Origin: Thiomicrospira pelophila DSM 1534
GTDB taxonomy: Bacteria; Pseudomonadota; Gammaproteobacteria; Thiomicrospirales; Thiomicrospiraceae
Reading direction: 5' to 3'
DNA: 64,000 bases
Assembly (NCBI RefSeq): GCF_000711195.1
Contig: NZ_JOMR01000001.1
Location: 1,798,001 to 1,862,000 of the forward strand
The notes beneath the pieces are model-generated. The model made no database searches, had not been told where the DNA came from, and saw only the letters and a list, made by a program, of their open reading frames with translations. Positions 3,757-64,000 of the stretch are shown piece by piece. Both the position numbers and the translations under genes were made by a program. Every line of letters begins with the position of its first letter. The first letter of the stretch is position 1.

Positions 3757-4196
3757 CCAGTATCGGATTATTAGAGCTAATTCCTAGCTGGATGTTAATT
3801 TCAGTAGGATTGATTTTGATCGGTGTGGAAATTTTTATTGGGTTATATATCTTGCTGTGGTTTGGTTTGGGCTTGATTTTTGTAGGCCTATTAAGCTTTT
3901 TTGTCGACTTTGGTCATGGCGAAATTCAGCTAATCTTTGCGTTTGCGATTGGCACAGTACTGCTATTTGCGTTACGCCGAAAACTGATCGCACCGCAGAA
4001 TGCGCAAACCGAATCCTTATCTACTTACGAGGCAGGTGAAACTGGTGTATTGTCACAACACAACGGCCAATGGATGGTGTTTTATCACGGCACACACTGG
4101 CTAGTGGCAAACCCAAATGACGACTTAACCGCCGGTCAACACATTAAAGTAACACAAATCAAAAGCAACCAGGCCTGGATTGAAGCGGAGTCCTAA
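3753..4196 (+). CDS. NfeD-like membrane protein (YbbK-partner type)
   Basis: A 147-aa short-form NfeD protein. Two or three hydrophobic segments (WMLISVGLILIGVEIFIGLYILLWFGLGLIFVG and LIFAFAIGTVLLFALRR) are followed by a small soluble OB-fold-like domain containing GETGVLSQHNGQWMVFYHG. NfeD proteins pair with SPFH proteins at the membrane. Translation is probably coupled to the SPFH gene through the ATGA overlap. Near the C-terminus the residues NQAW are encoded by one copy of the iterated palindrome (4169-4178). The stop codon shares its last A with the next start. Confidence 0.88.
   Translation: MTSIGLLELIPSWMLISVGLILIGVEIFIGLYILLWFGLGLIFVGLLSFFVDFGHGEIQLIFAFAIGTVLLFALRRKLIAPQNAQTESLSTYEAGETGVLSQHNGQWMVFYHGTHWLVANPNDDLTAGQHIKVTQIKSNQAWIEAES
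4169..4178. repeat. Iterated palindrome, copy 3
   Basis: CCAGGCCTGG inside the nfeD-like gene, read in the Gln-Ala-Trp frame (NQAWIE), six codons before the end of the protein. Confidence 0.9.
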
Positions 4197-5320
4197 TGCG
4201 CTGGATTGTGCTAAGTTTATTAATACTTAACCACCAGGCCTGGTCGCAGAGTTCTGAGCTGGCGATCAGCGATCCACTTCAATATGTCAGTCAACTTGAA
4301 ACACAAGTGGCGACCTCCTCTTCCGACCTATCCCTTGCACAACTTAAATCCCAACTAAAAGAAAAACGCGTGATTCATGTCGGGGAAATTCATCCCCGAT
4401 ATAGTGATCACTTAATTCAACTGGCAATGCTACAAAGTCTGCACCAACATTCGCCTAACGTTGCGATTGGGGTGGAATGGTTTCAACAACCCTTTCAACC
4501 CTGGTTAGATGCTTATATTTTAGGGCGGATTGATGAAGCTGAACTGCTGCATCAAACGCAATATTATCAACGCTGGCGCGTCGACTTTCGGCTATTGCGA
4601 CCCATTTTGCAATACGCTCGCCAACACCAACTGCGCATTCTCGCGCTAAATGCGCCAGCTGAATTAACCCGCCAGGTTTCAAGCTTAGGTCGCCAAAGTT
4701 TGAGCATGGAGCAGCTCGCCAACCTACCCAAAATTCATCCACCCGGCGCGGAACAACATCAACGTTTAAGCCGAATTTTTGAAGATAAGATTCCCGCCGA
4801 TCGTGAGATAGAAGATTTTATCTTTGCCCAGCGTATTTGGGACGAAACCATGGCGCGTAACGCGGTGGATTTTCTGAAACAGAATCCAGACCATAAATTA
4901 GTAATCTTTGCTGGCAACTTTCATCTAGCCTATCAAGCGGCGATTCCGGAAGATATGGCACGCCAAATCCCCCAGCTTAAAGAACAGCAGGTCACCATTA
5001 GTAGTGGTTCATTTGAAGATTATGAGCCGGGTGCATTTGATTATTTTGTGTTCACCGACCCGATTGAACTACCCCGCCACGCCCGACTTGGTGCGCGACT
5101 TAACACACAAAATGCCTGCATCGAATCAATCGAACCAGATAGTGCCGCCGAGAAAACTGGTCTGATGGTGGGTGATTGTCTTATTAAATTCAATGAGACA
5201 CGCCTAAGCCATTATGCAGATTTAATCCTAAAACTCAGCGAAACGCCGGCCGAGTCTTCTGCAAAGCTCACGCTAAAAAGACAAAAAGAAACCATTCAAG
5301 TTGAAATACAGTTTAACTAA
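4196..5320 (+). CDS. chaN: ChaN-family protein with C-terminal PDZ domain
   Basis: A 374-aa exported protein. The N-terminal hydrophobic segment (WIVLSLLILNHQAWSQ) acts as a signal peptide without an obvious lipobox cysteine. Residues ~60-290 match the ChaN/DUF399 haem-binding family: VIHVGEIHPRYSDHL near the start, VAIGVEWFQQPFQP, and the late VIFAGNFHLAYQ. A PDZ domain follows (ARLGARLNTQNACIESIEPDSAAEKTGLMVGD). ChaN-family proteins are linked to haem/iron uptake in other bacteria; the PDZ fusion suggests a protein-binding partner. It starts one base before the nfeD stop ends, so it is the third gene of the SPFH operon. The signal peptide's cleavage region is encoded by a copy of the iterated palindrome. 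Convergent rlmJ ends 11 bp away with no terminator visible. Confidence 0.88.
   Translation: MRWIVLSLLILNHQAWSQSSELAISDPLQYVSQLETQVATSSSDLSLAQLKSQLKEKRVIHVGEIHPRYSDHLIQLAMLQSLHQHSPNVAIGVEWFQQPFQPWLDAYILGRIDEAELLHQTQYYQRWRVDFRLLRPILQYARQHQLRILALNAPAELTRQVSSLGRQSLSMEQLANLPKIHPPGAEQHQRLSRIFEDKIPADREIEDFIFAQRIWDETMARNAVDFLKQNPDHKLVIFAGNFHLAYQAAIPEDMARQIPQLKEQQVTISSGSFEDYEPGAFDYFVFTDPIELPRHARLGARLNTQNACIESIEPDSAAEKTGLMVGDCLIKFNETRLSHYADLILKLSETPAESSAKLTLKRQKETIQVEIQFN
4234..4243. repeat. Iterated palindrome, copy 4
   Basis: CCAGGCCTGG (context ACCAGGCCTGGT) coding for Gln-Ala-Trp at residues 14-16 of the ChaN-like protein, at the end of its signal peptide. Confidence 0.9.
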
Positions 5321-6376: not shown

Positions 6377-7945
6377 ATGGAACTGAAAAACATTCAAACC
6401 ATAGAAGAAGCCAGTAAACGTAGCCGCAGTGAGTTATTCCGATTTGGATTAGCACTGTTATTTATTGTCGGAGTCATCCTGTTTACCTATGTCAACTACG
6501 GCCATATTAGCATTACCTTAGTTATTGCTGCGATGATTGGCGGCTACATGGCGATGAACATCGGTGCAAACGATGTCGCTAACAACGTCGGTCCGGCCGT
6601 GGGTTCGAAGGCCATGACCTTAACCACCGCGATCGCGATCGCGGCGATATTTGAAGCCGCTGGTGCAATCATCGCTGGTGGTAGCGTAGTAACGACCATT
6701 AAAGGTGGCATTATCAGCCCAGATGATATTGCAGATGCCCAAACCTTTGTATGGTTAATGATGGCCGCCCTATTAGCCGCCGCGTTATGGTTAAACCTAG
6801 CCACCGCTTTGGGTGCACCCGTTTCCACAACCCACTCCATTATTGGTGGCGTGTTGGGCGGTGGCATCGCGGCCGCCGGTTGGGCGATTGTTAACTGGGA
6901 GACCGTTGGCCAAATTGCAGCCAGCTGGGTGATCTCACCATTACTTGGTGGTTCGATTGCCGCTATTTTACTTTATGTGATTAAACGCACCATTACCTAC
7001 AAGGCCGACATGATGGATGCCTCGCGTCGCATGGTTCCTTGGCTTTTAGCTTTAATGGGTTGGGCTTTTGGTACTTATTTAATGATGAAAGGCCTAAAAA
7101 AAGTCATGCCGGTAAGCTTTATCGGTGCGGTTGGAATAGGTGTTGTGGTTGCATTAATCGTATACTTTATCACTCGACCAATCGTTGACCGTGCCTCTAA
7201 AGTTAATGCCAATAGCAAAGATGGCGTAAACAAGATGTTTACGATTCCACTTATCTTTGCAGCGGCCCTACTAAGCTTTGCACACGGTTCAAACGATGTA
7301 GCCAATGCCGTTGGCCCCTTAGCGGCTATTAACGATGCACTTTTGGGTTCAGAGATACATGGCAAGGCGGCGATTCCACTTTGGATTATGCTTGTTGGTG
7401 CACTTGGTATTGCAATTGGTTTAGCTCTTTATGGCCCTAAATTGATTCGCACCGTAGGCACCGAAATTACCGATATTGACCAAATGCGCGCTTACAGTAT
7501 TGCAATGGCGGCTGCCATAACGGTTATTTTAGCTTCACAGCTCGGCTTACCTGTCAGCACCACCCACGTTACCATCGGCGCTATTTTTGGGGTGGGTTTC
7601 TTACGAGAATACCTAAAAGCCAACTACAAACGTATGATCCAGAAAATCGAAGACCACCATAAAGGTAAAGATCGTGCAATTGTGGAAGCCTTTATTCGTC
7701 GTTTTGATAAAGCGTCTTTGGCTGAAAAAGGCCGTATGCTACAAGATTTAAAAAATGATGCCTTGGATAACAATGCACACTTAACCAAAAAAGAACGTAA
7801 AGGCCTGAAAAAGGTTTATCGTGAAGAATTGGTTAAACGTTCGATCATGCTAAAAGTGATCGCGGCTTGGGTCATCACGGTACCCGCTACCGCGCTAATC
7901 TCAGCGGGCGTGTTCTATTCAATTCAGTTAGTTATGACGTCTTAA
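6377..7945 (+). CDS. pit: Pit-family inorganic phosphate transporter
   Basis: Low-affinity inner-membrane phosphate symporter. About ten hydrophobic segments are seen. Both inverted Pit signature repeats are present: GANDVANNVGPAVGSKA near the N-terminus and HGSNDVANAVGPLAAI in the second half, each followed later by a PVSTTH motif (GAPVSTTHSIIGG, GLPVSTTHVTIG). A charged cytoplasmic stretch (~430-480) precedes the last helix. I chose ATG 6377 (MELKNIQ) because AGGAAG lies 7-12 nt upstream; an in-frame ATG at 6344 would add 11 residues and cannot be excluded. No PhoU-like partner gene is next to it. A palindrome-pair terminator follows the stop directly. Confidence 0.93.
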   Translation: MELKNIQTIEEASKRSRSELFRFGLALLFIVGVILFTYVNYGHISITLVIAAMIGGYMAMNIGANDVANNVGPAVGSKAMTLTTAIAIAAIFEAAGAIIAGGSVVTTIKGGIISPDDIADAQTFVWLMMAALLAAALWLNLATALGAPVSTTHSIIGGVLGGGIAAAGWAIVNWETVGQIAASWVISPLLGGSIAAILLYVIKRTITYKADMMDASRRMVPWLLALMGWAFGTYLMMKGLKKVMPVSFIGAVGIGVVVALIVYFITRPIVDRASKVNANSKDGVNKMFTIPLIFAAALLSFAHGSNDVANAVGPLAAINDALLGSEIHGKAAIPLWIMLVGALGIAIGLALYGPKLIRTVGTEITDIDQMRAYSIAMAAAITVILASQLGLPVSTTHVTIGAIFGVGFLREYLKANYKRMIQKIEDHHKGKDRAIVEAFIRRFDKASLAEKGRMLQDLKNDALDNNAHLTKKERKGLKKVYREELVKRSIMLKVIAAWVITVPATALISAGVFYSIQLVMTS

Positions 7946-7957
7946 TCGACTCAACCA

Positions 7958-7967
7958 CCAGGCCTGG
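7958..7967. repeat. Iterated palindrome, copy 5
   Basis: CCAGGCCTGG in full CACCAGGCCTGGTG context; intergenic, 3' of pit. Confidence 0.9.
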
Positions 7968-7975
7968 TGCTCATA

Positions 7976-7985
7976 CCAGGCCTGG
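7976..7985. repeat. Iterated palindrome, copy 6
   Basis: CCAGGCCTGG in context ACCAGGCCTGGT, 18 bp from copy 5 and forming the other arm of the same stem. Confidence 0.9.
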
Positions 7986-8079
7986 TGGTTATTCTTATCC
8001 CCTTACTCGATACTCACTTCAAATTCTGTTTTCTCTTAGCCTGTTTTCAATGGATTTATGTATTTTGGCGTTTCTCGTT

Positions 8080-11359: not shown

Positions 11360-12385
11360 ATGATAACGCGCTGTACTGTGCCCGCAAAACTGATCCTCAG
11401 TGGCGAGCATGCTGTTCTATACGGCGCGCCTGCTTTGAGTATGGCGATTAATTTAACCACCGAGTCTCAGCTCACATTCCAACCCAATAAACATCAGAAA
11501 ATCGAGATTCAATTAACCGATTATGACAAGCACCTGGCCTGGTCGTTTAGCGAAGCTTGGGATCAAGTTATAGAAATCGAAGCGCGTTATAAGACTTTCG
11601 AGAAAGGCTTAAAATCAATCCGCCAAGTCTGTCAGCAACCTTTTGATCTGGTACTTTTGTGTTTATTTCACTTCCAACAGCATTTTCAACTTGAGCCGGG
11701 TCACTGGACAATCAATATCCACTCCAATGTTTGGGTTGGGCGTGGTTTGGGCAGTTCGGCATCGGTTATTGTAAGCCTGTTAAGTGGACTGTTTAAGCAT
11801 CATAATATTCAAAACGAATCCGCCCTACTCGCTTTAGCGCAAACTGTGGAGTCTCGACAGCACGGTCAATCCAGCGGCTTAGACCCAGTGAGTGTTTTGT
11901 ACGGTGGATTAGTGCGCTATCAACAACACAAAGCACTCCAAAACTTACCTTCGCACCGTTTCCAGGCCTGGTTAATTGATACCGGTGAACCCAGCCGGAC
12001 AACCGGTGAATGCGTTAGCCAAGTCAAAGCTCAGCATGCGGAAGATATGGCTTTATGGGAAACCTTTACCCAGTGTACCAATGAAATCCATAAAGCTTGG
12101 CTCGCGCACGATGGCGCGGCTTTAAAACAGGCGATTCGTACGAATCAGTCTTTGTTGGAACGAATTGGCGTGGTGCCTGATAAAGTTGTTCGATTCATTC
12201 AACAACTCCAGCAAACCCCCAATTGCGCGGCCAAAGTATGCGGCGCGGGTAGTATCGCAGGCGATCAAGCCGGGGTAGTGATGGCCATCTGCGAGCAAGA
12301 CCCGACCGACTTATGCACGGAATGGGGTTTTGTTTGCCAAAAGATTCAAATCGACCAACAAGGCGCGCGCTGCCAAGCCGATTAG
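11360..12385 (+). CDS. mvk: Mevalonate kinase (GHMP family)
   Basis: Phosphorylates mevalonate at O5. The 341-aa GHMP kinase has motif 1 as PAKLILSGEHAVLYG (residues 8-22), the ATP loop GRGLGSSAS at 128-136, the catalytic Asp in SSGLDPVSV (D175), and the glycine-rich motif 3 KVCGAGSIAGDQAG. These are the mevalonate-kinase forms of each motif. Residues FQAW (~198-201) come from a copy of the iterated palindrome. A near copy, CCTGGCCTGG at 11533, encodes LAW. It lies 3 bp after mvaS, within the operon. The next gene starts 10 bp after the stop. Confidence 0.92.
   Translation: MITRCTVPAKLILSGEHAVLYGAPALSMAINLTTESQLTFQPNKHQKIEIQLTDYDKHLAWSFSEAWDQVIEIEARYKTFEKGLKSIRQVCQQPFDLVLLCLFHFQQHFQLEPGHWTINIHSNVWVGRGLGSSASVIVSLLSGLFKHHNIQNESALLALAQTVESRQHGQSSGLDPVSVLYGGLVRYQQHKALQNLPSHRFQAWLIDTGEPSRTTGECVSQVKAQHAEDMALWETFTQCTNEIHKAWLAHDGAALKQAIRTNQSLLERIGVVPDKVVRFIQQLQQTPNCAAKVCGAGSIAGDQAGVVMAICEQDPTDLCTEWGFVCQKIQIDQQGARCQAD
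11962..11971. repeat. Iterated palindrome, copy 7
   Basis: CCAGGCCTGG in mvk, Gln-Ala-Trp frame (RFQAWL). The flanks are t and t, so the 12-mer is broken on the left side. Confidence 0.88.
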
Positions 12386-13379: not shown

Positions 13380-14389
13380 AGTCTTCCCAAGCCTTGAGCG
13401 CCCAACAAATTATCAAGCAATTAATCCCGAGCAAATCAACCACTAAAGCACAAGGTTTTGGCGAAGCGCCGGTTAATATTGCGTTGAGTAAATATTGGGG
13501 CAAACGTCAGGTATCTCTTAACTTACCCACCAATTCTAGCTTATCAATCAGTTTGCCAGGGCTGGGAACCCAAACTCATTTGAGCTTAGTTGAAAATAAC
13601 GACAATACTGAGGACCAGGCCTGGTTGAATGGCAAACGTTTAGCTGGGGATTCAGAATTTGCAGGACGTTTAAGCCGCTATTTGGACTTGTTTCGTCCTG
13701 CTCATCATTATTTTAAAATCGACACCATTAACTCCGTGCCAACGGCTGCAGGTTTAGCGTCATCCGCTTCCGGTTATGCGGCCTTGGTGAAAGCTTTAAA
13801 TGATTTGTTTGACTGGCAGCTCAATCAGCGTTCGCTGTCGATTTTAGCGCGCTTAGGTAGTGGTAGCGCAAGTCGGTCTTTGTTTGATGGCTTCGCTATT
13901 TGGCACAAAGGCCAAGCGGAAGATGGCATGGATTCGTTTGCCGAAGCCTTACCTGAAACTTGGGCGGGCTTGTGCATTGGTTTAGTCAAAATTGATACGA
14001 CTGAAAAACCGATAGGTTCAACGGCCGGTATGCAGAAAACCGTCAACACTTGCGAGCTCTACCAGGCCTGGCCAACCCAGGCCGAACGTCAAGTTAAGCT
14101 GATTCAACAAGCGATTCAAGAGCACGACTTTACCTTAATAGGCGAAACCGCCGAACACAATGCCCTATCCATGCATGCCACCATGATCGCAACCTGGCCA
14201 CCTATATTGTACTGGCAAGCCGAGTCTGTATTGGCGATGCAAAAGGTTTGGCAGTTACGCCAGCAAGGCGTTGAGGTTTACTTTACGATGGATGCGGGCC
14301 CGAACTTAAAACTGATTTTTCTGGAGCCAAATAAAAACGCGGTCAAGGCCGCGTTTCAAGAGTTAGATGTGATTCAACCGTTTGGTTAA
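13376..14389 (+). CDS. mvaD: Diphosphomevalonate decarboxylase
   Basis: ATP-dependent decarboxylation of mevalonate diphosphate to IPP. Start taken at ATG 13376 (MKSSQALSAQ), giving 337 aa and an ATGA overlap with the upstream kinase; an open frame from 13331 lies inside that kinase. Family motifs: NIALSKYWGKR (~34-44), LPTNSSLSISL, the ATP loop SVPTAAGLASSASG, the decarboxylase-specific GSGSASRSLFDGF with the catalytic Asp, HNALSMHATM, and TMDAGPNLK near the C-terminus. Two copies of the iterated palindrome lie inside (DQAWL and YQAWP). It ends the operon; convergent sspB lies 5 bp away and no terminator hairpin is visible between them. Confidence 0.95.
   Translation: MKSSQALSAQQIIKQLIPSKSTTKAQGFGEAPVNIALSKYWGKRQVSLNLPTNSSLSISLPGLGTQTHLSLVENNDNTEDQAWLNGKRLAGDSEFAGRLSRYLDLFRPAHHYFKIDTINSVPTAAGLASSASGYAALVKALNDLFDWQLNQRSLSILARLGSGSASRSLFDGFAIWHKGQAEDGMDSFAEALPETWAGLCIGLVKIDTTEKPIGSTAGMQKTVNTCELYQAWPTQAERQVKLIQQAIQEHDFTLIGETAEHNALSMHATMIATWPPILYWQAESVLAMQKVWQLRQQGVEVYFTMDAGPNLKLIFLEPNKNAVKAAFQELDVIQPFG
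13615..13624. repeat. Iterated palindrome, copy 8
   Basis: CCAGGCCTGG in mvaD, Gln-Ala-Trp frame (EDQAWL), full ACCAGGCCTGGT context. Confidence 0.9.
14062..14071. repeat. Iterated palindrome, copy 9
   Basis: Second CCAGGCCTGG in mvaD, Gln-Ala-Trp frame (LYQAWP); the right flank is c instead of t. Confidence 0.88.
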
Positions 14390-21888: not shown

Positions 21889-22971
<1,083 letters not shown>

Positions 22972-28240: not shown

Positions 28241-29245
28241 TTAGGATGTCTTTTTTATTAAATTTTTAAAGGCTAATAAATCCGAACGTAATGCTAAATC
28301 AGCTGGATAAGGATCAAAGATCAATTGATCTTGAAGATACTCCACTTCATATTCATCCACCCATTGTTGTAACAACTTCATCATCGCGACCAAGGGAACA
28401 ATACCTTGCCGAAACTCATCAAGTGTATCGCGATACAATTCTTTCTGGCTAGGCCCTAAATGGTTTTTAACGAATCCATATAAATGCTCCAGAACATTCA
28501 GCATATTACTACGCTGCGTCTTAGTCGCGAGTGCTTGATAAAGCAAGGTTTGATATTGTTCGATAACCTGCGCCCAGTTATCCAAACTGGCCTGAGCAAC
28601 AATCGGCCCCATCTTGCGGTAAATCGCTTCATTTTTCGATAGCAATAAAAATTTATGTTGACGATGAAAGGTTTGCAAATGCACCAGGCCTGGTGCTTGG
28701 CTCAAAAATACGCGCCAGCGTGCCTGCGTAAACAGCTGCAGAACAAAATTTTCTCGCAACCAAGGGTCTTGCAACCGCCCCTCATCTTCAACCGCCAGGT
28801 GGGGTATCGCTTGTTGCAAAGCTTGCGTAAACAAACCCTGACCGATACCTTTATCAGACCCCAACCACTCACCGGTTGGACGATATATTTTGATTCGATC
28901 CAAGCCGCAAGAAGGTGATTTAGATTTAACCACGGCGCCATCAATGCCTTTCTTCTGCAAACGCGCGACCATCTTATGATTATAATCCAATAAACCTTCC
29001 GTATAGTCGGCACCCGACTTGCCACCTAGTACTCGCAACTCACCGTCAACTCGACATAAGCGCACACTTTCACGAGGCGTTCCCATCGCCGCATCTTCGG
29101 GGCAAAAAGGTACAAAGTCGACATACTTGGCCAACCGATCCGTGACAAAATCGTCTTGTGCATGACCACCGTTATAACGACATTTCACACCCAACAAACA
29201 ATTCGACACCGCTAACTGAACTTTTGGATAAGTTGACTTAGTCAT
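28241..29245 (-). CDS. DUF523 (TudS-like)-DUF1722 fusion protein
   Basis: A 334-aa two-domain protein from ATG 29245 (MTKSTYPKVQ, with AAAGGAG 7 nt upstream; an in-frame GTG at 29260 is less likely). Residues ~7-155 match DUF523, with three conserved cysteines in SNCLLGVKCRYNGGH, FCPEDAAMGTPRE and SKSPSCG. The TudS thiouracil desulfidases of this family hold a [4Fe-4S] cluster on such cysteines. Residues ~165-330 are the DUF1722 (YbgA) domain, starting WLRENFVLQLFTQARWRVFL. Residues PGLV (~182) come from a palindrome copy. Thiouracil or thio-nucleobase desulfuration is a family-based possibility, not demonstrated. Confidence 0.85.
   Translation of the reverse strand: MTKSTYPKVQLAVSNCLLGVKCRYNGGHAQDDFVTDRLAKYVDFVPFCPEDAAMGTPRESVRLCRVDGELRVLGGKSGADYTEGLLDYNHKMVARLQKKGIDGAVVKSKSPSCGLDRIKIYRPTGEWLGSDKGIGQGLFTQALQQAIPHLAVEDEGRLQDPWLRENFVLQLFTQARWRVFLSQAPGLVHLQTFHRQHKFLLLSKNEAIYRKMGPIVAQASLDNWAQVIEQYQTLLYQALATKTQRSNMLNVLEHLYGFVKNHLGPSQKELYRDTLDEFRQGIVPLVAMMKLLQQWVDEYEVEYLQDQLIFDPYPADLALRSDLLAFKNLIKKTS
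28684..28693. repeat. Iterated palindrome, copy 11
   Basis: CCAGGCCTGG in full CACCAGGCCTGGTG context within the DUF523-DUF1722 gene, read on the minus strand as Pro-Gly-Leu (QAPGLVHL). Confidence 0.9.
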
Positions 29246-31558: not shown

Positions 31559-33046
31559 ATGAAAAAAATCCATTTTAACTTAATCCCCAATCCAAACCTG
31601 ACTAACTTCGACACCCTAGTTTTACCCGTGTTTGACAAAGGTCGATCTATTAGTGCGGCCGCCAGTTTTGGTTTACATGAACTGATTGAAAAGCTTGATG
31701 CACAAGATGACTTTAAAGGTAAGTGCGGTCAAACCTTAATGCTATTAAATCAAAACCTCCTCAATGGTGCGCGCTTATTGTTAGTTGGCCTTGGTGACCC
31801 AGATAAATTGACCGCTAAAAGCTATATTAGCGCAATCCAAGCGATGGCCAAAGCGCTTGACAACAGCGGTGCTTGCCAGATTCTCGACACCACTCATTTG
31901 GCGACACCAAGCGATCAGCTTGGTCAGTGGGGACTTTTCCAAAACAGTTTAATTCTGCAACGTAGTTTTTATGACTATGCCCACGCCAGCCGTGGCGAAC
32001 ATACCGCCAAAGACCCGAAATTAAGCCAAGTCACGTTTATGTCTGAAGACAGTCAAGAATACAAACTAGCGGTGTCACAAGGTCAAGCGACCGCAATTGG
32101 CATGGCGTTAACCCAAGACCTCGCCAACATGCCGAGCAACTTCTGCACCCCCGCTTATTTGGCCGAAACCGCGATTGAACTCGGTAAACAGGCGGGCTTT
32201 AACGTTCAAGTATTAGAGCGTGAACAAATGCTTGAAATGGGCATGGGGGCCTTTATGTCAGTTGCTCAGGGTACCGACACCCCACCCAAAATGATTTCGA
32301 TTCAATACCAAGGTGGCTCAGCGGATCAAGCCCCAATTGCACTAGTAGGCAAAGGCGTAACCTTTGATACCGGCGGTATTTCACTTAAGCCTGGCGCCAG
32401 TATGGATGAAATGAAATACGATATGGGTGGTGCGGCCACGGTACTAGGTGTATTCCAAGCATTGGCCGAGCTTAAGCCTAATATTAATGTGGTCGGTGTG
32501 ATCCCGTCTACTGAAAACATGCCCTCTGGCAATGCGGTCAAGCCGGGCGATGTGGTTACATCCTTGTCGGGTCAAACCATTGAAGTATTAAATACCGATG
32601 CCGAAGGTCGCTTGTTATTGTGTGACGCCCTCACCTATGCACAGCAAACTTACCAACCAGGCCTGGTGATTGATATCGCCACCTTAACGGGCGCTTGTAT
32701 TATTGCGTTGGGCAACCATGTTTCGGGCTTACTAGGGAACGACCAAGCATTGATTGACCAACTGTTAAAAGCAGGTAACACAACTTATGATCGTTTCTGG
32801 CAACTGCCACTAGGCGAAGAATGGGATGAGCAGCTTAAATCAAACTTTGCGGATATGGCCAACATTGGGGGTCGCGAAGCCGGTACAATTACTGCCGCTC
32901 AGTTTTTAGCACGCTATACCAAAGACGTTAAATGGGCACACTTGGATATTGCCGGAACGGCTTGGCAGTCGGGCGCGAACAAAGGGGCATCCGGTCGCCC
33001 AGTACCCGCCTTAGTTGAGTTCATCCTTCAACAAGCGCAATCCTAA
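31559..33046 (+). CDS. pepA: Leucyl aminopeptidase (M17)
   Basis: A 495-aa cytosolic metallo-aminopeptidase. The C-terminal catalytic domain shows the two-metal site and catalytic residues: LVGKGVTFDTGGISLKPG, MDEMKYDMGGAATVLG, NMPSGNAVKPGDVV, and the M17 signature NTDAEGRLLLCDALTYA. LTGACIIALG and WAHLDIAGTAW follow. The N-terminal domain (~1-170) is the variable region; in E. coli PepA also acts as a DNA-binding repressor and Xer accessory protein. Residues QPGLV next to the metal site are encoded by a palindrome copy. A possible -10 (TATAAA, 31511-31516) lies upstream. Confidence 0.97.
   Translation: MKKIHFNLIPNPNLTNFDTLVLPVFDKGRSISAAASFGLHELIEKLDAQDDFKGKCGQTLMLLNQNLLNGARLLLVGLGDPDKLTAKSYISAIQAMAKALDNSGACQILDTTHLATPSDQLGQWGLFQNSLILQRSFYDYAHASRGEHTAKDPKLSQVTFMSEDSQEYKLAVSQGQATAIGMALTQDLANMPSNFCTPAYLAETAIELGKQAGFNVQVLEREQMLEMGMGAFMSVAQGTDTPPKMISIQYQGGSADQAPIALVGKGVTFDTGGISLKPGASMDEMKYDMGGAATVLGVFQALAELKPNINVVGVIPSTENMPSGNAVKPGDVVTSLSGQTIEVLNTDAEGRLLLCDALTYAQQTYQPGLVIDIATLTGACIIALGNHVSGLLGNDQALIDQLLKAGNTTYDRFWQLPLGEEWDEQLKSNFADMANIGGREAGTITAAQFLARYTKDVKWAHLDIAGTAWQSGANKGASGRPVPALVEFILQQAQS
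32657..32666. repeat. Iterated palindrome, copy 12
   Basis: CCAGGCCTGG in pepA, Pro-Gly-Leu frame (YQPGLVID), full ACCAGGCCTGGT context, 15 codons after the active-site NTDAEGR motif. Confidence 0.9.
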
Positions 33047-33047
33047 A

Positions 33048-33473
33048 ATGAGCCAAGACGTTGTCTTTTATGTGCTGAGCAGCAGCGACCTAGCTTCGCG
33101 TGAGCGTTTTCTAACTAAGCTGCTGCTTAAAACTCAGCAGCAAAAACGTCGCGTTGACGTGCGTTTTGCACACATTCAAGAGGCTGAACGCTTTGATCAG
33201 ACCCTTTGGGCTCAGCCGCCACATAGTTATCTGCCGCACGCTGTCGAACAGGCGCTACCTGCGCCTATTCAATTGTTTGGGGCGGAAATTACACGTAGCT
33301 GTCAAGATGTGTTGATTAATTTACATCCAAACTTATCTTCGGAGTTTCAAAATTATCAACGCACCATTGAGGTATTAGATCAATCTGCGGAACTCATTGA
33401 AAAAGGACGCCAGCGCTGGCGTGAATATAAAGAACAAGGCTTTGAACCAACCCTGCATAAAATTGAAAGCTAA
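33048..33473 (+). CDS. holC: DNA polymerase III chi subunit
   Basis: A 141-aa protein from ATG 33048 (MSQDVVFYVLSSSD), immediately after pepA; a longer frame from 33015 lies inside pepA. Chi landmarks: FYVL at the start, RFLTKLLLKTQQQKRRVDVRF, LWAQPPHSYLPHAVEQ, and LINLHPNLSSEFQNYQRTIEVLDQS. Chi links the clamp-loader to SSB. The pepA-holC pairing is standard in gammaproteobacteria. The last codons and the stop fall inside a perfect 32-bp palindrome. Confidence 0.94.
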   Translation: MSQDVVFYVLSSSDLASRERFLTKLLLKTQQQKRRVDVRFAHIQEAERFDQTLWAQPPHSYLPHAVEQALPAPIQLFGAEITRSCQDVLINLHPNLSSEFQNYQRTIEVLDQSAELIEKGRQRWREYKEQGFEPTLHKIES

Positions 33474-33497
33474 GCACCAGGCCTGGTGCTTAGCTTT
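33466..33497. terminator. Perfect 32-bp palindrome at the holC stop
   Basis: Positions 33466-33481 are exactly complementary to 33482-33497, centred on copy 13 of CCAGGCCTGG, with A3/T3 ends. It spans the holC stop codon and lies between convergent genes. With no loop it would form a hairpin only with its central bases unpaired. A terminator role is inferred from position. Confidence 0.6.
33477..33486. repeat. Iterated palindrome, copy 13
   Basis: CCAGGCCTGG at the centre of the 32-bp palindrome, beginning 3 bp after the holC stop. Confidence 0.9.
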
Positions 33498-41941: not shown

Positions 41942-42397
41942 TTAACGACACCAATCCACAGAAACATCACTGCTGTCTTTCACGGAACCATTGCCATTCA
42001 TTGTTTTAGACTGACGGGTGAACTTGCTAGCGGTCAACATCCAGTTAGAAAAAACGGGATAAGTTTGTCGCGTTAACTCGGCCATTTTCTCTGGGTCCGA
42101 ACTTGGAAAGTCCAGCATACGCGCCGCCAATCGGAAAATAATCTGCATATTATCTGCGTCTAACGTTTGCGGATTAAAATAAGTTATCTTACTTAATACA
42201 ATGCGTGAACGAACTAGATCCAAGTCATCACCTTCCGGCATTTTATCTTTAAAATAGCGTTCAACCAGGCCTGGTTGTGACCAATTCAAAATATTAATCA
42301 TGGGTTCTATGCCCAACATAGCCATTGAACCCTTTCTAAATCTTAACGGAATTTCTGCTAAAAAACCTTTCTCGAGTTTATAGTTTTTATCCAGCAT
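41942..42397 (-). CDS. Hypothetical protein coupled to the PilZ-like gene
   Basis: A 151-aa protein from ATG 42397 (MLDKNYKLEKGFLAEIPLRFRKG); ATG 42415 would add six residues. No signal peptide or membrane segment. I do not recognise a family. It is mixed helix/strand with a run of charged residues (KDKMPEGDDLDLVRSRIVLSK), and ends in an Asn/Ser-rich tail NGNGSVKDSSDVSVDWCR. Residues QPGLV come from a palindrome copy. It overlaps the end of the PilZ-like gene by about 11 bp, so the two are probably translated together and may interact. Confidence 0.7.
   Translation of the reverse strand: MLDKNYKLEKGFLAEIPLRFRKGSMAMLGIEPMINILNWSQPGLVERYFKDKMPEGDDLDLVRSRIVLSKITYFNPQTLDADNMQIIFRLAARMLDFPSSDPEKMAELTRQTYPVFSNWMLTASKFTRQSKTMNGNGSVKDSSDVSVDWCR
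42265..42274. repeat. Iterated palindrome, copy 14
   Basis: CCAGGCCTGG in the hypothetical gene, read on the minus strand as Pro-Gly-Leu (SQPGLVER). Confidence 0.9.
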
Positions 42398-43639: not shown

Positions 43640-44917
43640 ATGAAACTTCCCCAAAGACGTACTCAACCCAAAAAACACAAAACCCAAAGACCCAGTACTT
43701 TATCTGGAGTTTACTCTGGCTTAAAGATTGAAGGCCTTACGCACGATGGTCGTGGTGTGGGTCATATTAACGGCAAAGCCGTATTCATTAAAAATGCCTT
43801 ACCCGACGAAGTGGTTGATATAAAAATTCAGCAGGATCAAGCCCAATTTGCACAAGCTCGTGTGATGAAGTGGCTGGAGATTTCAGCTGATCGGGTAACA
43901 CCTTTTTGTGAAAATTACGATCGTTGTGGAGGTTGTAGCCTTCAGCATTTAAGCTATGACAAACAGGTTTTTTGGAAACAAAAAAATCTCATTGAGCAAC
44001 TCACTAAAAGTCTCGATACTCGCCGATTGGTTATCGAACCTATGCAAACTTCTGATCCCCAAGGTTATCGCCGACGCGCTCGAATGTTTCTTGTAAAGCA
44101 AGCCTCTCAACCAAAAGGGCTCGATAAACAGGCTAAACTAGGGTTTCGCGAACTCAATAGTGAACAAGTTGTCGATATTGAAAACTGCCCTGTGTTAACG
44201 CCCGCTTTACAAAAAACTATGCAATCAATTCGTTTTGAGCTGCTTCCGTTGGCCAGCCGCCAATCTAAAGAAATTCATTTAAGTGAATCGGAGCAAGGCA
44301 TTTGGGTGGATTCAAACGTTTATAAAAAGAGCCCTAACAACACCAAAAATCAACCGCCTTATTACAACCTAAGAGACTTAAAAATCCAATTTGACCCGAC
44401 AGGTTTTATCCAGGTTAATAGCCCTGTGAACGAATCATTAGTCGAGCAAGCTTTGAGCTGGTTAGCGCTTTCGCCAGGTTCAACTCTGCTTGATCTGTTT
44501 TGTGGTGTGGGCAACTTTAGTTTACCTGCCGCAAAAATGGCCAACCAAGTAGTGGGGGTTGAAGGCAATAGCGCAGCGGTTGAGCTAGCTAAAAGCAATG
44601 CTAGTCTAAATAAATTAAATAATTTGACCTTTCACAAAGCTGATTTATTTGAAAAGTCTGACCACCAGGCCTGGTGGTCAGACTACGATGCCGTGTTGCT
44701 TGATCCTGGCCGTTTGGGTGCGAAAACATTGTGTCAGAACATAGGTGAGTTAAATGCACAGCGTATTGTTTATGTATCTTGTCAAAGTGATACTTTAATT
44801 CGTGACTTACAGGTTATTGAACAGCAAGGCTACCGCCTCAAGCGGATTCAATTGTTCGATATGTTTCCCAACACCAGTCATATTGAAAGTTTAGTATTAA
44901 TGGAAAAGCTAACCTAA
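43640..44917 (+). CDS. rlmD: 23S rRNA (uracil1939-C5)-methyltransferase RlmD
   Basis: A 425-aa SAM-dependent RNA m5U methyltransferase. An N-terminal TRAM domain (IEGLTHDGRGVGHINGKAVFI) is followed by the [4Fe-4S] cysteines in FCENYDRCGGCSLQHL with the fourth in ENCPVL. The C-terminal Rossmann domain has LLDLFCGVGNFSLPAA (SAM) and YVSCQSDTLIRDL with the catalytic Cys. The canonical YVSCNPxT reads YVSCQSDT. Residues SDHQAWWSD are encoded by a perfect 28-bp palindrome. A strong terminator follows. Confidence 0.94.
   Translation: MKLPQRRTQPKKHKTQRPSTLSGVYSGLKIEGLTHDGRGVGHINGKAVFIKNALPDEVVDIKIQQDQAQFAQARVMKWLEISADRVTPFCENYDRCGGCSLQHLSYDKQVFWKQKNLIEQLTKSLDTRRLVIEPMQTSDPQGYRRRARMFLVKQASQPKGLDKQAKLGFRELNSEQVVDIENCPVLTPALQKTMQSIRFELLPLASRQSKEIHLSESEQGIWVDSNVYKKSPNNTKNQPPYYNLRDLKIQFDPTGFIQVNSPVNESLVEQALSWLALSPGSTLLDLFCGVGNFSLPAAKMANQVVGVEGNSAAVELAKSNASLNKLNNLTFHKADLFEKSDHQAWWSDYDAVLLDPGRLGAKTLCQNIGELNAQRIVYVSCQSDTLIRDLQVIEQQGYRLKRIQLFDMFPNTSHIESLVLMEKLT
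44656..44683. repeat. Perfect 28-bp palindrome inside rlmD (copy 15)
   Basis: Positions 44656-44669 are the exact complement of 44670-44683, centred on CCAGGCCTGG at 44665-44674 (Gln-Ala-Trp frame). The extra nine matched bases on each side go beyond the usual motif. Confidence 0.95.
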
Positions 44918-50935: not shown

Positions 50936-52068
50936 AATGAAGTATCCTCATCCATTTTGGATTGTACTGGGAGTTTATCCATAGCTTTAACAACTTGCCC
51001 GGGACGAACACGTAAAGCGCCTTCGCTGACAATTTTATCGCCGAGTTTTAATCCTCTTTTCACTTCCACCAGGCCTGGTTGTCTTAAACCTAGCGTTACT
51101 TTTATTCGGTTAACTTTGTAAAGTCCATCCGACTCTGGTTTTAATTGATACACATAATGATGCTCTGCGATTGGTACGATTGCCGTTTCAGGCACAAGCA
51201 AAACCGAGCGTGGTTTTTGTTGAAGTTCAACATTCATTAACATGCCAGGTACCAAACGGTTATCTGGATTACTTAACTTGGCTCGAACAGGGATACTCCG
51301 AGTCCGAATATCCACCGTAGGTAAAATAGTCTCTATTTGTGCAATAAACTCCTGATCCGCGTAAGCATCTGTTTTGGCAAGCACCTTATCCCCTACCTTT
51401 AATTCGGTTAAAAACCGACTTGGCACGCTAAAATCTAGTTTCATTTCAGTCAAGTCTTGCAACTTGGTAACCAGAGTTCCAGGCGTTAATAATGCACCTT
51501 CACTAATCTGGCGGATACTGACACGACCGGAAAACGGCGCACTCAACTTTAACTTCTCTAGTCTAGCTTGCAATACGGTTTCTTTCGCGCGCGCCAAATC
51601 CCATTCACGCTTGTACTCATCTAAGGTTGACTGGGCAATATCACCACGTTTGTACAAGGGTAGATAACGATCATAAAGCTGCTTAGCGTTATCGGTGGCA
51701 ATTTTGAGCTCATCCAGCGTTGCACGCTCTTCGGCACTTTTTAGCTGCACCAACAACTGACCCTTTTTAACAAAGTCACCATCATTAAAATGAATAGAGT
51801 CTACTTTTTCAGTAACAGTTGAACTAATCTCAACTGATTCACTGGCCTTCAAATCCCCTAAGGCTTGAATATTTTCAATAATTTGTTGCTCAAATACCTC
51901 AGCGGATAATACCGACTGTGGCTGTTTAGCTTGCGAAACCAACCCATAAGTCGCGAGTAAAAACCCAATCAATGAACTCGTAAAAATTAGCCGCATACTT
52001 TTAAATCTCATATTGTTATCATGTTGTACGAATTGTATTTTTTGTTCATCATAATAGGCGGTATTCAC
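50932..52068 (-). CDS. RND efflux periplasmic adaptor (membrane fusion protein)
   Basis: A 378-aa open frame from a GTG at 52068; in-frame ATGs at 52011 (MRFKSMRLIF) and 51996 (MRLIFTSSLIG) give a neater signal peptide or anchor, and no ribosome site decides between them. After the N-terminal helix come the lipoyl half-motifs SISSTVTEKVDSIHFNDGDFVKKGQLLVQL and LKLSAPFSGRVSIRQISEGALLTPG around a helical hairpin (~110-165), then a beta-barrel and membrane-proximal domain. The end contains RQPGLVEVKRGL, encoded by a palindrome copy. Coupled by ATGA to the RND transporter gene. Confidence 0.93.
   Translation of the reverse strand: MNTAYYDEQKIQFVQHDNNMRFKSMRLIFTSSLIGFLLATYGLVSQAKQPQSVLSAEVFEQQIIENIQALGDLKASESVEISSTVTEKVDSIHFNDGDFVKKGQLLVQLKSAEERATLDELKIATDNAKQLYDRYLPLYKRGDIAQSTLDEYKREWDLARAKETVLQARLEKLKLSAPFSGRVSIRQISEGALLTPGTLVTKLQDLTEMKLDFSVPSRFLTELKVGDKVLAKTDAYADQEFIAQIETILPTVDIRTRSIPVRAKLSNPDNRLVPGMLMNVELQQKPRSVLLVPETAIVPIAEHHYVYQLKPESDGLYKVNRIKVTLGLRQPGLVEVKRGLKLGDKIVSEGALRVRPGQVVKAMDKLPVQSKMDEDTSL
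51069..51078. repeat. Iterated palindrome, copy 16
   Basis: CCAGGCCTGG in the adaptor gene, Pro-Gly-Leu frame on the minus strand (RQPGLVEV), full 12-mer context. Confidence 0.9.
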
Positions 52069-55262: not shown

Positions 55263-55272
55263 CCAGGCCTGG
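55263..55272. repeat. Iterated palindrome, copy 17
   Basis: CCAGGCCTGG (context ACCAGGCCTGGT) 11 bp beyond the ilvN stop, between ilvN and ilvC. Confidence 0.9.
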
Positions 55273-58282: not shown

Positions 58283-59539
58283 ATGAATTTCATCAGTGTC
58301 TTGTTTGTTCTGAGCCTTGCCAGCAATTTGCTGATCGAGCTTTGGTTAAACATTAAAAACCAGTTCCACATTTTGCGTCACCGCGAGCAAGTACCTCAAG
58401 AGTTTAGCGAGGTCGTTAACTTGGAGGCGCATCAAAAAGCCGCTGATTACTCTCGCGCCAAACTTCAATTAAGCCGACTTGTGCTTTTTTTTGATGCCGC
58501 TGTAATCTTAATCATGACGCTGGGTGGCGGATTTCAAGACATTTATCGTATCTGGCAGAACATAGAGCTTGCCCCAATATGGCAAGATGTCGGTTTTCTA
58601 CTCTCGACTTTTTGGTTTTTAGCTTTGCTTCACCTGCCTTTTTCAATTATCAGCACCTTTAAAATTGAAGCCCTGTTTGGCTTTAACAAAACCACTCCGG
58701 TCAAGTTCATGAGCGATCTTCTAAAACAATGGGGGCTCATGTTCATTTTAGGCCTACCATTACTTTGGGCGATTGTCAGCATCATGAACAGCTATATCGA
58801 CCAGGCCTGGTGGTTATATACCTGGCTTATCTGGATGGGATTTAATTTAACTTTATTATGGGCTTATCCTAAATGGATTGCGCCTTTATTTAACAAGTTC
58901 ACCCCATTAGAAGATGGTGAAATGAAACAACGTATTGAAGCTTTGTTGGCGCGCACCGGATTTGAATCTAATGGCATTTTTGTGATGGATGGCTCATCGC
59001 GCTCCGGTCATGGCAACGCCTATTTCACTGGCATGGGCAAAAACAAACGTATTGTATTTTTTGATACCCTACTGGAAAAACTCACTGTTGATGAAGTAGA
59101 GGCGGTGCTTGCGCATGAATTAGGCCATTTTAAACACGGCCACATTACCAAGCGCCTAATCGAAGGTGCGGCGATCAGTCTCATCGGCTTAGCTTTACTG
59201 GGCTGGCTGGTTCAGTTACCGGCCTTTTATAGTGGTCTAGGGATTGAGACTGCCACGCCAGCGGCGGCCTTGCTATTATTTGTAACCGCTGTGCCAGTAA
59301 TGTTCTTTTTCCTAGGCCCAATTATGGCCTTCAAAAGTCGCAAACATGAGTTTGAGGCCGATGCATTTGCCGCTCAACATGTGGGCGCACAACATTTGAT
59401 CAATGCATTGTTAAAGCTGTACCGTGACAATGCCAGCACTCTCACGCCGGATCCAAGCTTCTCGGCTTATCATGACAGTCATCCACCCGCTAAAATTCGT
59501 ATCGACCATTTAAAGACTCTAAAAGGAGAAAACAAATGA
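58283..59539 (+). CDS. M48 (Ste24-like) membrane metalloprotease
   Basis: A 418-aa polytopic protein with the zinc motif HELGH in VLAHELGHFKHGHITKRL and the third ligand Glu in KSRKHEFEADAFAAQHVG. Several membrane helices precede and follow. GFNKTTPVKFMSDLLKQWG and FNKFTPLEDGEMKQRIEAL match Ste24/CAAX-protease-1 segments. Bacterial homologues act on membrane proteins rather than prenylated CAAX substrates. Residues DQAWW in a membrane helix are encoded by a palindrome copy. The stop overlaps phhB by ATGA. Confidence 0.92.
   Translation: MNFISVLFVLSLASNLLIELWLNIKNQFHILRHREQVPQEFSEVVNLEAHQKAADYSRAKLQLSRLVLFFDAAVILIMTLGGGFQDIYRIWQNIELAPIWQDVGFLLSTFWFLALLHLPFSIISTFKIEALFGFNKTTPVKFMSDLLKQWGLMFILGLPLLWAIVSIMNSYIDQAWWLYTWLIWMGFNLTLLWAYPKWIAPLFNKFTPLEDGEMKQRIEALLARTGFESNGIFVMDGSSRSGHGNAYFTGMGKNKRIVFFDTLLEKLTVDEVEAVLAHELGHFKHGHITKRLIEGAAISLIGLALLGWLVQLPAFYSGLGIETATPAAALLLFVTAVPVMFFFLGPIMAFKSRKHEFEADAFAAQHVGAQHLINALLKLYRDNASTLTPDPSFSAYHDSHPPAKIRIDHLKTLKGENK
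58801..58810. repeat. Iterated palindrome, copy 18
   Basis: CCAGGCCTGG (context ACCAGGCCTGGTGG) in the M48 gene, Gln-Ala-Trp frame (IDQAWWLY). Confidence 0.9.
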
Positions 59540-62245: not shown

Positions 62246-64000
62246 TTATAACAACACACGTTCAATTCCATCATCTTCTAACTTGGCAATAAAGTCTTTT
62301 TTCCAGCTCTTACCCAATAAATTATTCGCCATCTCTACCACGATATAATCGGTTTTTAGGCCAGTTTCATCCTGATAGCGGTTTAATCCTTGTTGGCAAG
62401 CTGGGCAAGAAGTTAATAGCTTCACATTTCCATTAACCGCTTTATCCGAGCCTGTTAAGTCTTTAATACCTTGCTTCAACTCCTCTTCCTTACGGAAACG
62501 TAATTGGTTAGCAATGTCAGGGCGAGAGGTTGCCAAAGTTCCCGCTTCACTGCAGCAGCGATCATTTAATGGTACGTCAATACCAGTCAAAGTGCTTGCT
62601 ACTTTAGCCGAGTCATATTTTTTCATTGGATCATGACATGGCTCGTGATACATATATTGCACCCCTTCTACACCTTGCATTTTCACACCTTTTTCCATCA
62701 GGAACTCATGAATATCTAGTAAACGACAACCTGGGAAAATCTGTTCAAATTCATATTTCAACAACTGATCCATACATGTCCCGCATGACACCAACACGGT
62801 TTTAATATCTAGATAATTTAAGGTGTTAGCTACGCGATGGAACAGGGCTCGATTTTCAGTCGTAATTTGCGCACCTTTAGCCGCTTGACCCGCCGCCGTT
62901 TGTGGATAACCGCAACACAAGTAACCTGGAGGCAAAATCGTTTGCACACCAGTTTCATACAGCATCGTTAAGGTCGCCATACTGATGTCACTGAATAAAC
63001 GCTCAGAGCCACAGCCCGGGAAATAAAACACGGCTTCGGTTTCCTCAGAGGTTTTAACCGGATCACGTAAAATCGGCACAATCGTTCGATCCTCAAGTGA
63101 AAGCAACGCGCGCATAGTCGGCTGATTTGGCCCTATATCTAAGGGTTTACGCACAAAGTGAATAACTTGCTGTGTCACCGGTGTTTGCCCGGTAGAACTC
63201 GCTGGCAATTGATCCTTGCGGCCAAGCAACCCTGTCCATTTAGCCAAACGATGACCAAGTCGTTGACCGACTGCCCCCCAGCCCAATAAAGTGGTGCGTA
63301 AAAACTTCACCAGGCCTGGCTGTCCAGTATTTAAGTAGAACAAGGCAGCCTTTGTGCCTATGCTCGATTGTTTTTGCCCCATATCAGTCAAGATCTTGCG
63401 CATACGTATGGATACATCACCAAAGTCAATATCAACTGGGCAAGGTGCTTCACATTTATGACAAGTGGTGCAATGGTCTGCGACATCGTTCATCGCATCA
63501 AAATGATGCAATGAAATGCCACGTCGCGTTTGTTCTTCGTATAAGAAGGCTTCAATAACTTGACCGGTTGCCAAAATTTTATTACGCGGTGAATAGAGTA
63601 GATTCGCACGCGGAATATGGGTTTGGCATACAGGCTTACATTTTCCGCAACGCAAACAATCTTTAATATCATTGTTAAGCTGATCGAGTTCACTGGCTTC
63701 TAAAATCAGCGCTTCTTGCTTAACTAGAGATAAAGAAGGCGTATAAGCATTGTGCAAACCAGAACCCGGCATCAGTTTGCCTTTGTTAAAGTGACCGTTC
63801 GGGTCAACTTTATTTTTATAGTCCACAAACGCCTGAATTTTTTCCGATGACAAAAACTCGATTTTTGTTAAACCGATCCCATGCTCACCTGAAATAACGC
63901 CACCTAAATCAGTGGCTAGTTTCATCACGCGCTCTACTACACGATCGGCCAACTGAATCATCTGATAATTGTTTGAGTGCACAGGGATATTGGTGTGGAT
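62246..64000 (-). CDS. FAD/Fe-S oxidoreductase, C-terminal part (5' end outside window)
   Basis: Open to the window edge (585 codons visible, beginning IHTNIPVHSNNYQ). The first ~80 residues are the end of an FAD-linked oxidase domain (LATDLGGVISGEHGIGLTK, a motif of D-lactate/glycolate dehydrogenases). Two 4Fe-4S motifs follow, CLRCGKCKPVC and CTTCHKCEAPCP. Then two CCG domains appear, with CCGYPQTAAG and CCSEAG plus CGTCMDQ and CPACQQG, as in GlpC/LldE-type subunits. This predicts a long fused 2-hydroxyacid (lactate-like) dehydrogenase delivering electrons to quinone. Substrate is not determined. Residues QPGLV come from a palindrome copy. Confidence 0.9.
   Translation of the reverse strand: MHTNIPVHSNNYQMIQLADRVVERVMKLATDLGGVISGEHGIGLTKIEFLSSEKIQAFVDYKNKVDPNGHFNKGKLMPGSGLHNAYTPSLSLVKQEALILEASELDQLNNDIKDCLRCGKCKPVCQTHIPRANLLYSPRNKILATGQVIEAFLYEEQTRRGISLHHFDAMNDVADHCTTCHKCEAPCPVDIDFGDVSIRMRKILTDMGQKQSSIGTKAALFYLNTGQPGLVKFLRTTLLGWGAVGQRLGHRLAKWTGLLGRKDQLPASSTGQTPVTQQVIHFVRKPLDIGPNQPTMRALLSLEDRTIVPILRDPVKTSEETEAVFYFPGCGSERLFSDISMATLTMLYETGVQTILPPGYLCCGYPQTAAGQAAKGAQITTENRALFHRVANTLNYLDIKTVLVSCGTCMDQLLKYEFEQIFPGCRLLDIHEFLMEKGVKMQGVEGVQYMYHEPCHDPMKKYDSAKVASTLTGIDVPLNDRCCSEAGTLATSRPDIANQLRFRKEEELKQGIKDLTGSDKAVNGNVKLLTSCPACQQGLNRYQDETGLKTDYIVVEMANNLLGKSWKKDFIAKLEDDGIERVLL
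63310..63319. repeat. Iterated palindrome, copy 19
   Basis: CCAGGCCTGG in the oxidoreductase gene, Pro-Gly-Leu frame on the minus strand (GQPGLVKF). Confidence 0.88.

Follow-up and report, generated by a model that had tools for sequence, protein, structure and literature searches.

An iterated palindrome inside rlmD of Thiomicrospira pelophila looks like a palindromic variant of uptake-type sequences

Two bacterial families, the Neisseriaceae and the Pasteurellaceae, are established as taking up DNA in a sequence-specific manner; most of their members are host-associated. In descriptions of the classical uptake sequences of these families, DUS and USS, the words are non-palindromic (PMC1939737). 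The Neisseriaceae DUS is a dispersed short word of coding and intergenic DNA, reused in terminators, surrounded by many one-mismatch copies and divided into lineage-specific dialects whose inner core is shared (PMC3630211). In Simonsiella muelleri, 1294 simDUS/kingDUS occurrences are arranged as overlapping dyad-symmetric pairs (PMC3630211). The Pasteurellaceae USS, which is gammaproteobacterial, has a conserved core, a T/AT-rich flank and clade dialects, and reads in one direction only, with two AT tracts downstream (PMC1626085, PMC12616744). Cyanobacterial HIP1, GCGATCGC, is a highly iterated palindrome of coding and non-coding DNA that accompanies orphan methyltransferases and is represented by alternative palindromes in exceptional species (PMC4390886). 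In the literature searched, nothing was found on the word described below or on uptake sequences in its family, nor any uptake experiment for that family.

The window, that is, the whole 64-kb stretch of DNA that was analysed, contains an open reading frame that scores 345 bits against the NCBIfam RlmD model (TIGR00479, cut-off 183.6). The first-pass annotation had described a perfect 28-bp palindrome within this gene that also codes for KSDHQAWWSD. The palindrome is real and one pair longer, at 30 bp, and its coding role is confirmed in the 425-codon frame. At the composition of the window, about 7e-5 perfect palindromes of at least 30 bp are expected in 64 kb. The parts of the locus are as follows.

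43640–44917, plus strand: rlmD, 23S rRNA (uracil-1939-C5)-methyltransferase gene, 425 codons, NCBIfam RlmD match
44655–44684, no strand: 30-bp perfect palindrome AGTCTGACCACCAGGCCTGGTGGTCAGACT, inside rlmD
44660–44679, no strand: stretch covered by the family consensus on both sides of the core, approximately AACCACCAGGCCTGGTGGTT; bases beyond it are specific to the copy
44664–44675, no strand: 12-bp iterated core ACCAGGCCTGGT, 613 exact copies genome-wide

The rlmD palindrome is one copy of the word (A)ACCACCAGGCCTGGTGGT(T), with ACCAGGCCTGGT as its core. Four bases on each side of the 12-bp core match the genome-wide repeat consensus, which leaves about six outer pairs as peculiar to the rlmD copy.

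The shorter form CCAGGCCTGG has 19 copies in the window, where shuffled sequences give an expectation of 0.02, and 695 in the genome of 2,108,215 bases (about 0.33 per kb), while the same letters read backwards do not occur at all. In a 464-kb sample, CAGGCCTG was counted 208 times (6.8 expected), CCAGGCCTGG 165 times (0.7 expected) and ACCAGGCCTGGT 149 times (0.07 expected). The density is lower than in DUS genomes, for which 1900–6000 copies are cited. Besides the rlmD copy, the window contains the following copies, none of which has an assigned strand.

2183–2220: intergenic pair of CCAGGCCTGG copies with 28-bp spacing
4169–4178: CCAGGCCTGG copy
4234–4243: CCAGGCCTGG copy
7956–7987: two CCAGGCCTGG copies 18 bp apart, forming a joint long hairpin (-36.5 kcal/mol, z -8.7), terminator-like
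11962–11971: CCAGGCCTGG copy
13615–13624: CCAGGCCTGG copy
14062–14071: CCAGGCCTGG copy
22930–22945: CCAGGCCTGG copy in a 16-bp palindrome, intergenic
28681–28696: CCAGGCCTGG copy in a 16-bp palindrome, coding
32657–32666: CCAGGCCTGG copy
33466–33497: intergenic copy within a 32-bp perfect palindrome, hairpin -22.3 kcal/mol
42262–42277: CCAGGCCTGG copy at 42265, in a 16-bp palindrome; Thiomicrospira sp. Kmv17 (L037) has a copy in the corresponding syntenic place
51069–51078: CCAGGCCTGG copy
55263–55272: CCAGGCCTGG copy, intergenic
58801–58810: CCAGGCCTGG copy
63310–63319: CCAGGCCTGG copy

The analysis covered 864 kb of this genome (41%), taken as stretches. About 72% of copies lie inside coding frames, mainly read as QAW or PGL and less often as TRPG (97, 86 and 18, respectively, of 201 in the 864 kb). 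At coding sites, the consensus outward from the core is T (93%), G (52%), G (50%), T (56%) and T (43%), so that a weaker symmetric consensus, GGTT outward, surrounds the 12-mer and ends at about ±10 bp. The number of copies ranges from 0 to 12 per 20 kb, a fairly even dispersal with a variance-to-mean ratio of 1.37. A mobile repeat of the REP or MITE kind was considered and rejected, because the coding share is so high and the consensus too short. Around 255 perfect 12-mers there is a halo of 98 variants with one mismatch, located in one arm. Intergenic copies are unevenly placed, with 26 in 8.1 kb of convergent gaps and 7 in 20.4 kb of divergent gaps (p 3e-9); they sit mainly at gene ends and would double as hairpin terminators. 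The one rRNA operon examined contains no copy of the palindrome. The single island examined, which is Tn7-like, has none over 15.1 kb; its genes at L244:2244–14000 (about 2.057–2.069 Mb of the same genome) include a TnsA-like protein, a Mu-type transposase, TniB and TniQ, and among its probable cargo are a Beta protein and a protein with an Nmad2 nucleotide-modification domain. A separate observation concerns L071:6410–14721 (about 2.01 Mb of this genome), where two very long adjacent frames of 1411 and 1358 aa are probably rpoC and rpoB accompanied by translation genes, judging from size and neighbours; one CAGGCCTG was counted in the 20 kb concerned.

The word is restricted to one family, which we infer to be that of Thiomicrospira, Hydrogenovibrio and Thiomicrorhabdus. 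Of 63 family genomes, 27 have ACCAGGCCTGGT in abundance, with about 100 to 850 copies each, and each of 365 other genomes of the class has at most 5 copies of the 12-mer. All nine genomes of the genus carry the word, and its occurrence inside the other genera is patchy. Carriers of different lineages have different flanks, several of them rich in T between +9 and +13: in genome G005, CCAGGCCTGG is followed by a T-run at these positions, G016 and G062 are AT-rich there, and G025 and G049 retain CAGGCCTG with different neighbouring bases. Two further words stand in place of the palindrome. G028 lacks CCAGGCCTGG and has 1025 copies of another palindrome, ACCGGCCGGT, which is found at most 15 times in any other genome. 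Three species of a genus that also includes palindrome carriers (G007, G008 and G014) are themselves essentially without these palindromic words and contain 199, 190 and 222 dispersed copies of the non-palindromic CCCCARCCTGGCAGATTTT, present at most once in any other genome. CCCCARCCTGGCAGATTTT is present in genes as well as between them, and in two places of the G007 sample a gene end has two inverted copies separated by about 30 bp. The word agrees with one half of the G005 palindrome at 14 of 18 positions, and at 14 of 20 with a longer query (shuffle p 0.00025). Other candidate dialects, namely CCACAGCGG and AGCCGGCT in G008, CACTGGCAACC in G032 and GTAATGGTACC in G053, were rejected as local repeats, all or nearly all of their copies lying within one stretch. 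Samples of G018, G031, G032 and G053 showed no evident palindrome and no evident dispersed word.

Taken together with the coding and intergenic dispersal, the terminator reuse and the one-mismatch copies, these lineage-specific dialects with a common inner core resemble the DUS system, which is the closest precedent. Unlike the DUS, a single word is itself a perfect palindrome of 10–12 bp, and both the family and the sequence are different. The conserved core, the T- or AT-rich flank and the clade dialects in a gammaproteobacterial family recall the USS. The flanks here are symmetric, however, with the exception of the G007/G008/G014 dialect, which looks USS-like.

A palindrome with hundreds of dispersed copies, most of them in coding DNA, also recalls HIP1. 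On an explanation of that type (the Elhai model), copies accumulate as mismatch repair is biased by a DNA methyltransferase whose target is part of the word. The core contains two CCWGG sites and one GGCC, and the alternative palindrome ACCGGCCGGT of a single species parallels the HIP1 exceptions (PMC4390886). HIP1 itself is not the overrepresented word here, that position being held by CAGGCCTG, CCAGGCCTGG and ACCAGGCCTGGT. The two enzyme classes examined were the C5-cytosine methyltransferases (PF00145), which are absent from all nine genus genomes, and the beta-class N4/N6 enzymes (PF01555), which are absent from at least 12 carriers, including this genome, where the sole PF01555 match is rlmD itself. 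Because these genes are missing in many carriers, the methylation model, derived from an element that accompanies orphan methyltransferases, fits poorly; the non-palindromic sister dialect CCCCARCCTGGCAGATTTT also stands against it. A methylation-driven element is therefore quite unlikely. As a minor observation, an 18-bp palindrome at 6627–6644 of the window, CCGCGATCGCGATCGCGG, contains the cyanobacterial HIP1 octamer twice and is not iterated here.

The word is conserved between relatives beyond what its composition would give. In 164 kb of alignment between G010 and G016, which are 92.0% identical, 51 of 57 copies are intact, compared with 53% of GC-matched 10-mers (Fisher 5e-9). Substitution amounts to about 2% in the core, 5% out to +12 and near 10% farther out. 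At rlmD, the seven genus relatives whose gene is full-length all have CAGGCCTGG at the same QAW codons, at protein identities of 37–62%; with the rlmD of other genera, W alone is in common at this site.

Such conservation is what the site of an intracellular homodimeric protein involved in nucleoid organisation, replication or repair would also show, if selection on chromosome structure maintained it. A binding protein of this kind would likewise be expected to yield palindromes that are conserved, iterated and lineage-specific, and the perfect dyad symmetry, the protected footprint of 20–24 bp and the fairly even dispersal noted above agree with it. It does not predict a non-palindromic dialect or the absence of the word from the resident Tn7-like island, and intracellular binding proteins seldom switch their site inside one genus. 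It is a serious rival, even if we consider it rather improbable.

The explanation towards which we lean, with moderate confidence, is that the word is a palindromic, family-specific and highly iterated DNA-uptake signal sequence. A competence receptor associated with the type IV pilus would bind the word and thereby prefer DNA of its own kind. Once DNA had been taken up, recombination would propagate copies and mend damaged ones at any site where protein-coding constraint permits, as a combination of molecular drive and purifying effect, and intergenic copies would be reused as hairpin terminators at gene ends. Since the palindrome reads alike on both strands, a dimeric receptor, or one that recognises a half-site, is suggested. 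We infer the uptake function, the receptor and dimer recognition from the traits of uptake-type sequences found here: dispersed overrepresentation, dialects with a common inner core, inverted pairs and terminators at gene ends, a halo of near misses, absence from the rRNA operon examined, and competence genes. ComEC is present in 57 and ComEA in 54 of the 63 family genomes, and both are present in this genome. The two genera that lack ComEA have no more than a few copies of the word. Both proteins are nevertheless found in most word-free genomes as well and separate the carriers poorly, and the association with ComEA is weak (Fisher p 0.07). The non-palindromic form of the classical DUS and USS also counts against the uptake explanation, although the S. 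muelleri pairs do show dyad symmetry, and so does a copy number below that of DUS genomes. For the word studied here, an uptake role is proposed from sequence, unlike the case of the DUS.

More tentatively, and with somewhat more doubt than belief, the bacteria with a self-recognition code for DNA uptake would gain a third family, one of free-living sulfur oxidisers in which the code switches between asymmetric and fully palindromic words among related species. If that is true, an uptake receptor can shift from half-site to dyad reading. A cultivable family of free-living chemolithoautotrophs with mutually exclusive words, palindromic or not, alongside word-free species would be a natural experiment on the origin, change and loss of uptake specificity. 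If uptake is not the cause, the word is an unexplained HIP-like element outside the cyanobacteria for which methylation, the best-known explanation, is largely ruled out.

It is also necessary to consider the outer arms of the rlmD palindrome, for which the first-pass annotation had proposed either DNA-level constraint on the flanks or copying from one arm to the other. Constraint extends to about ±12 bp as a property of the repeated word; the outer pairs from +10 to +15 are peculiar to this genome. The symmetric arm measures 15 bp here; among the four closest relatives it is 9, 7, 8 and 7 bp long. In the rlmD of G054, G055 and G061 the right arm is intact and the left arm diverged. The first-pass interpretation is therefore partly supported: DNA-level constraint exists, but it is that of the genome-wide word and not of the outer flanks of rlmD. 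Loss of symmetry in relatives had been offered as a sign of chance extension; this describes the outer pairs, yet the core word is kept in those relatives. Under the uptake explanation, the core and first flanking bases of rlmD would be kept by the genome-wide process of uptake and recombination, and the outer six pairs would be a private and probably accidental extension, or else the product of a template switch.

The mirrored substitutions suggested as a check did not appear. The 98 one-arm variants compare with 6 symmetric doubles, and between G010 and G016 there are 39 changes in one arm and 4 in both, of which 1 preserves symmetry. Each left-arm base from +10 to +15 occurs singly in some rlmD relative, and nothing consequently shows copying at this site. 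That chance extension or template-switch copying is the whole story at rlmD is very improbable. The privacy of the symmetry past +9, the single occurrence of every left-arm base among relatives and the long arms of coding copies are in its favour, but it covers the outer six pairs alone, the unmirrored substitutions oppose it, and the 695 genomic copies of a conserved word already refute it as the full explanation. Genome-wide, arms of at least 11 are more frequent than in shuffles, which leaves room for occasional arm-to-arm copying. Among intergenic copies, 13 were seen against 1.9 in shuffles, an excess for which hairpin terminators, given the bias towards convergent gaps, are the best explanation. 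Quasipalindrome template switching is a described mutation mechanism (PMC7202029, PMC8604942), and it may be reflected in the small excess among coding copies, where 6 were seen against 1.1 in shuffles (p about 0.002).
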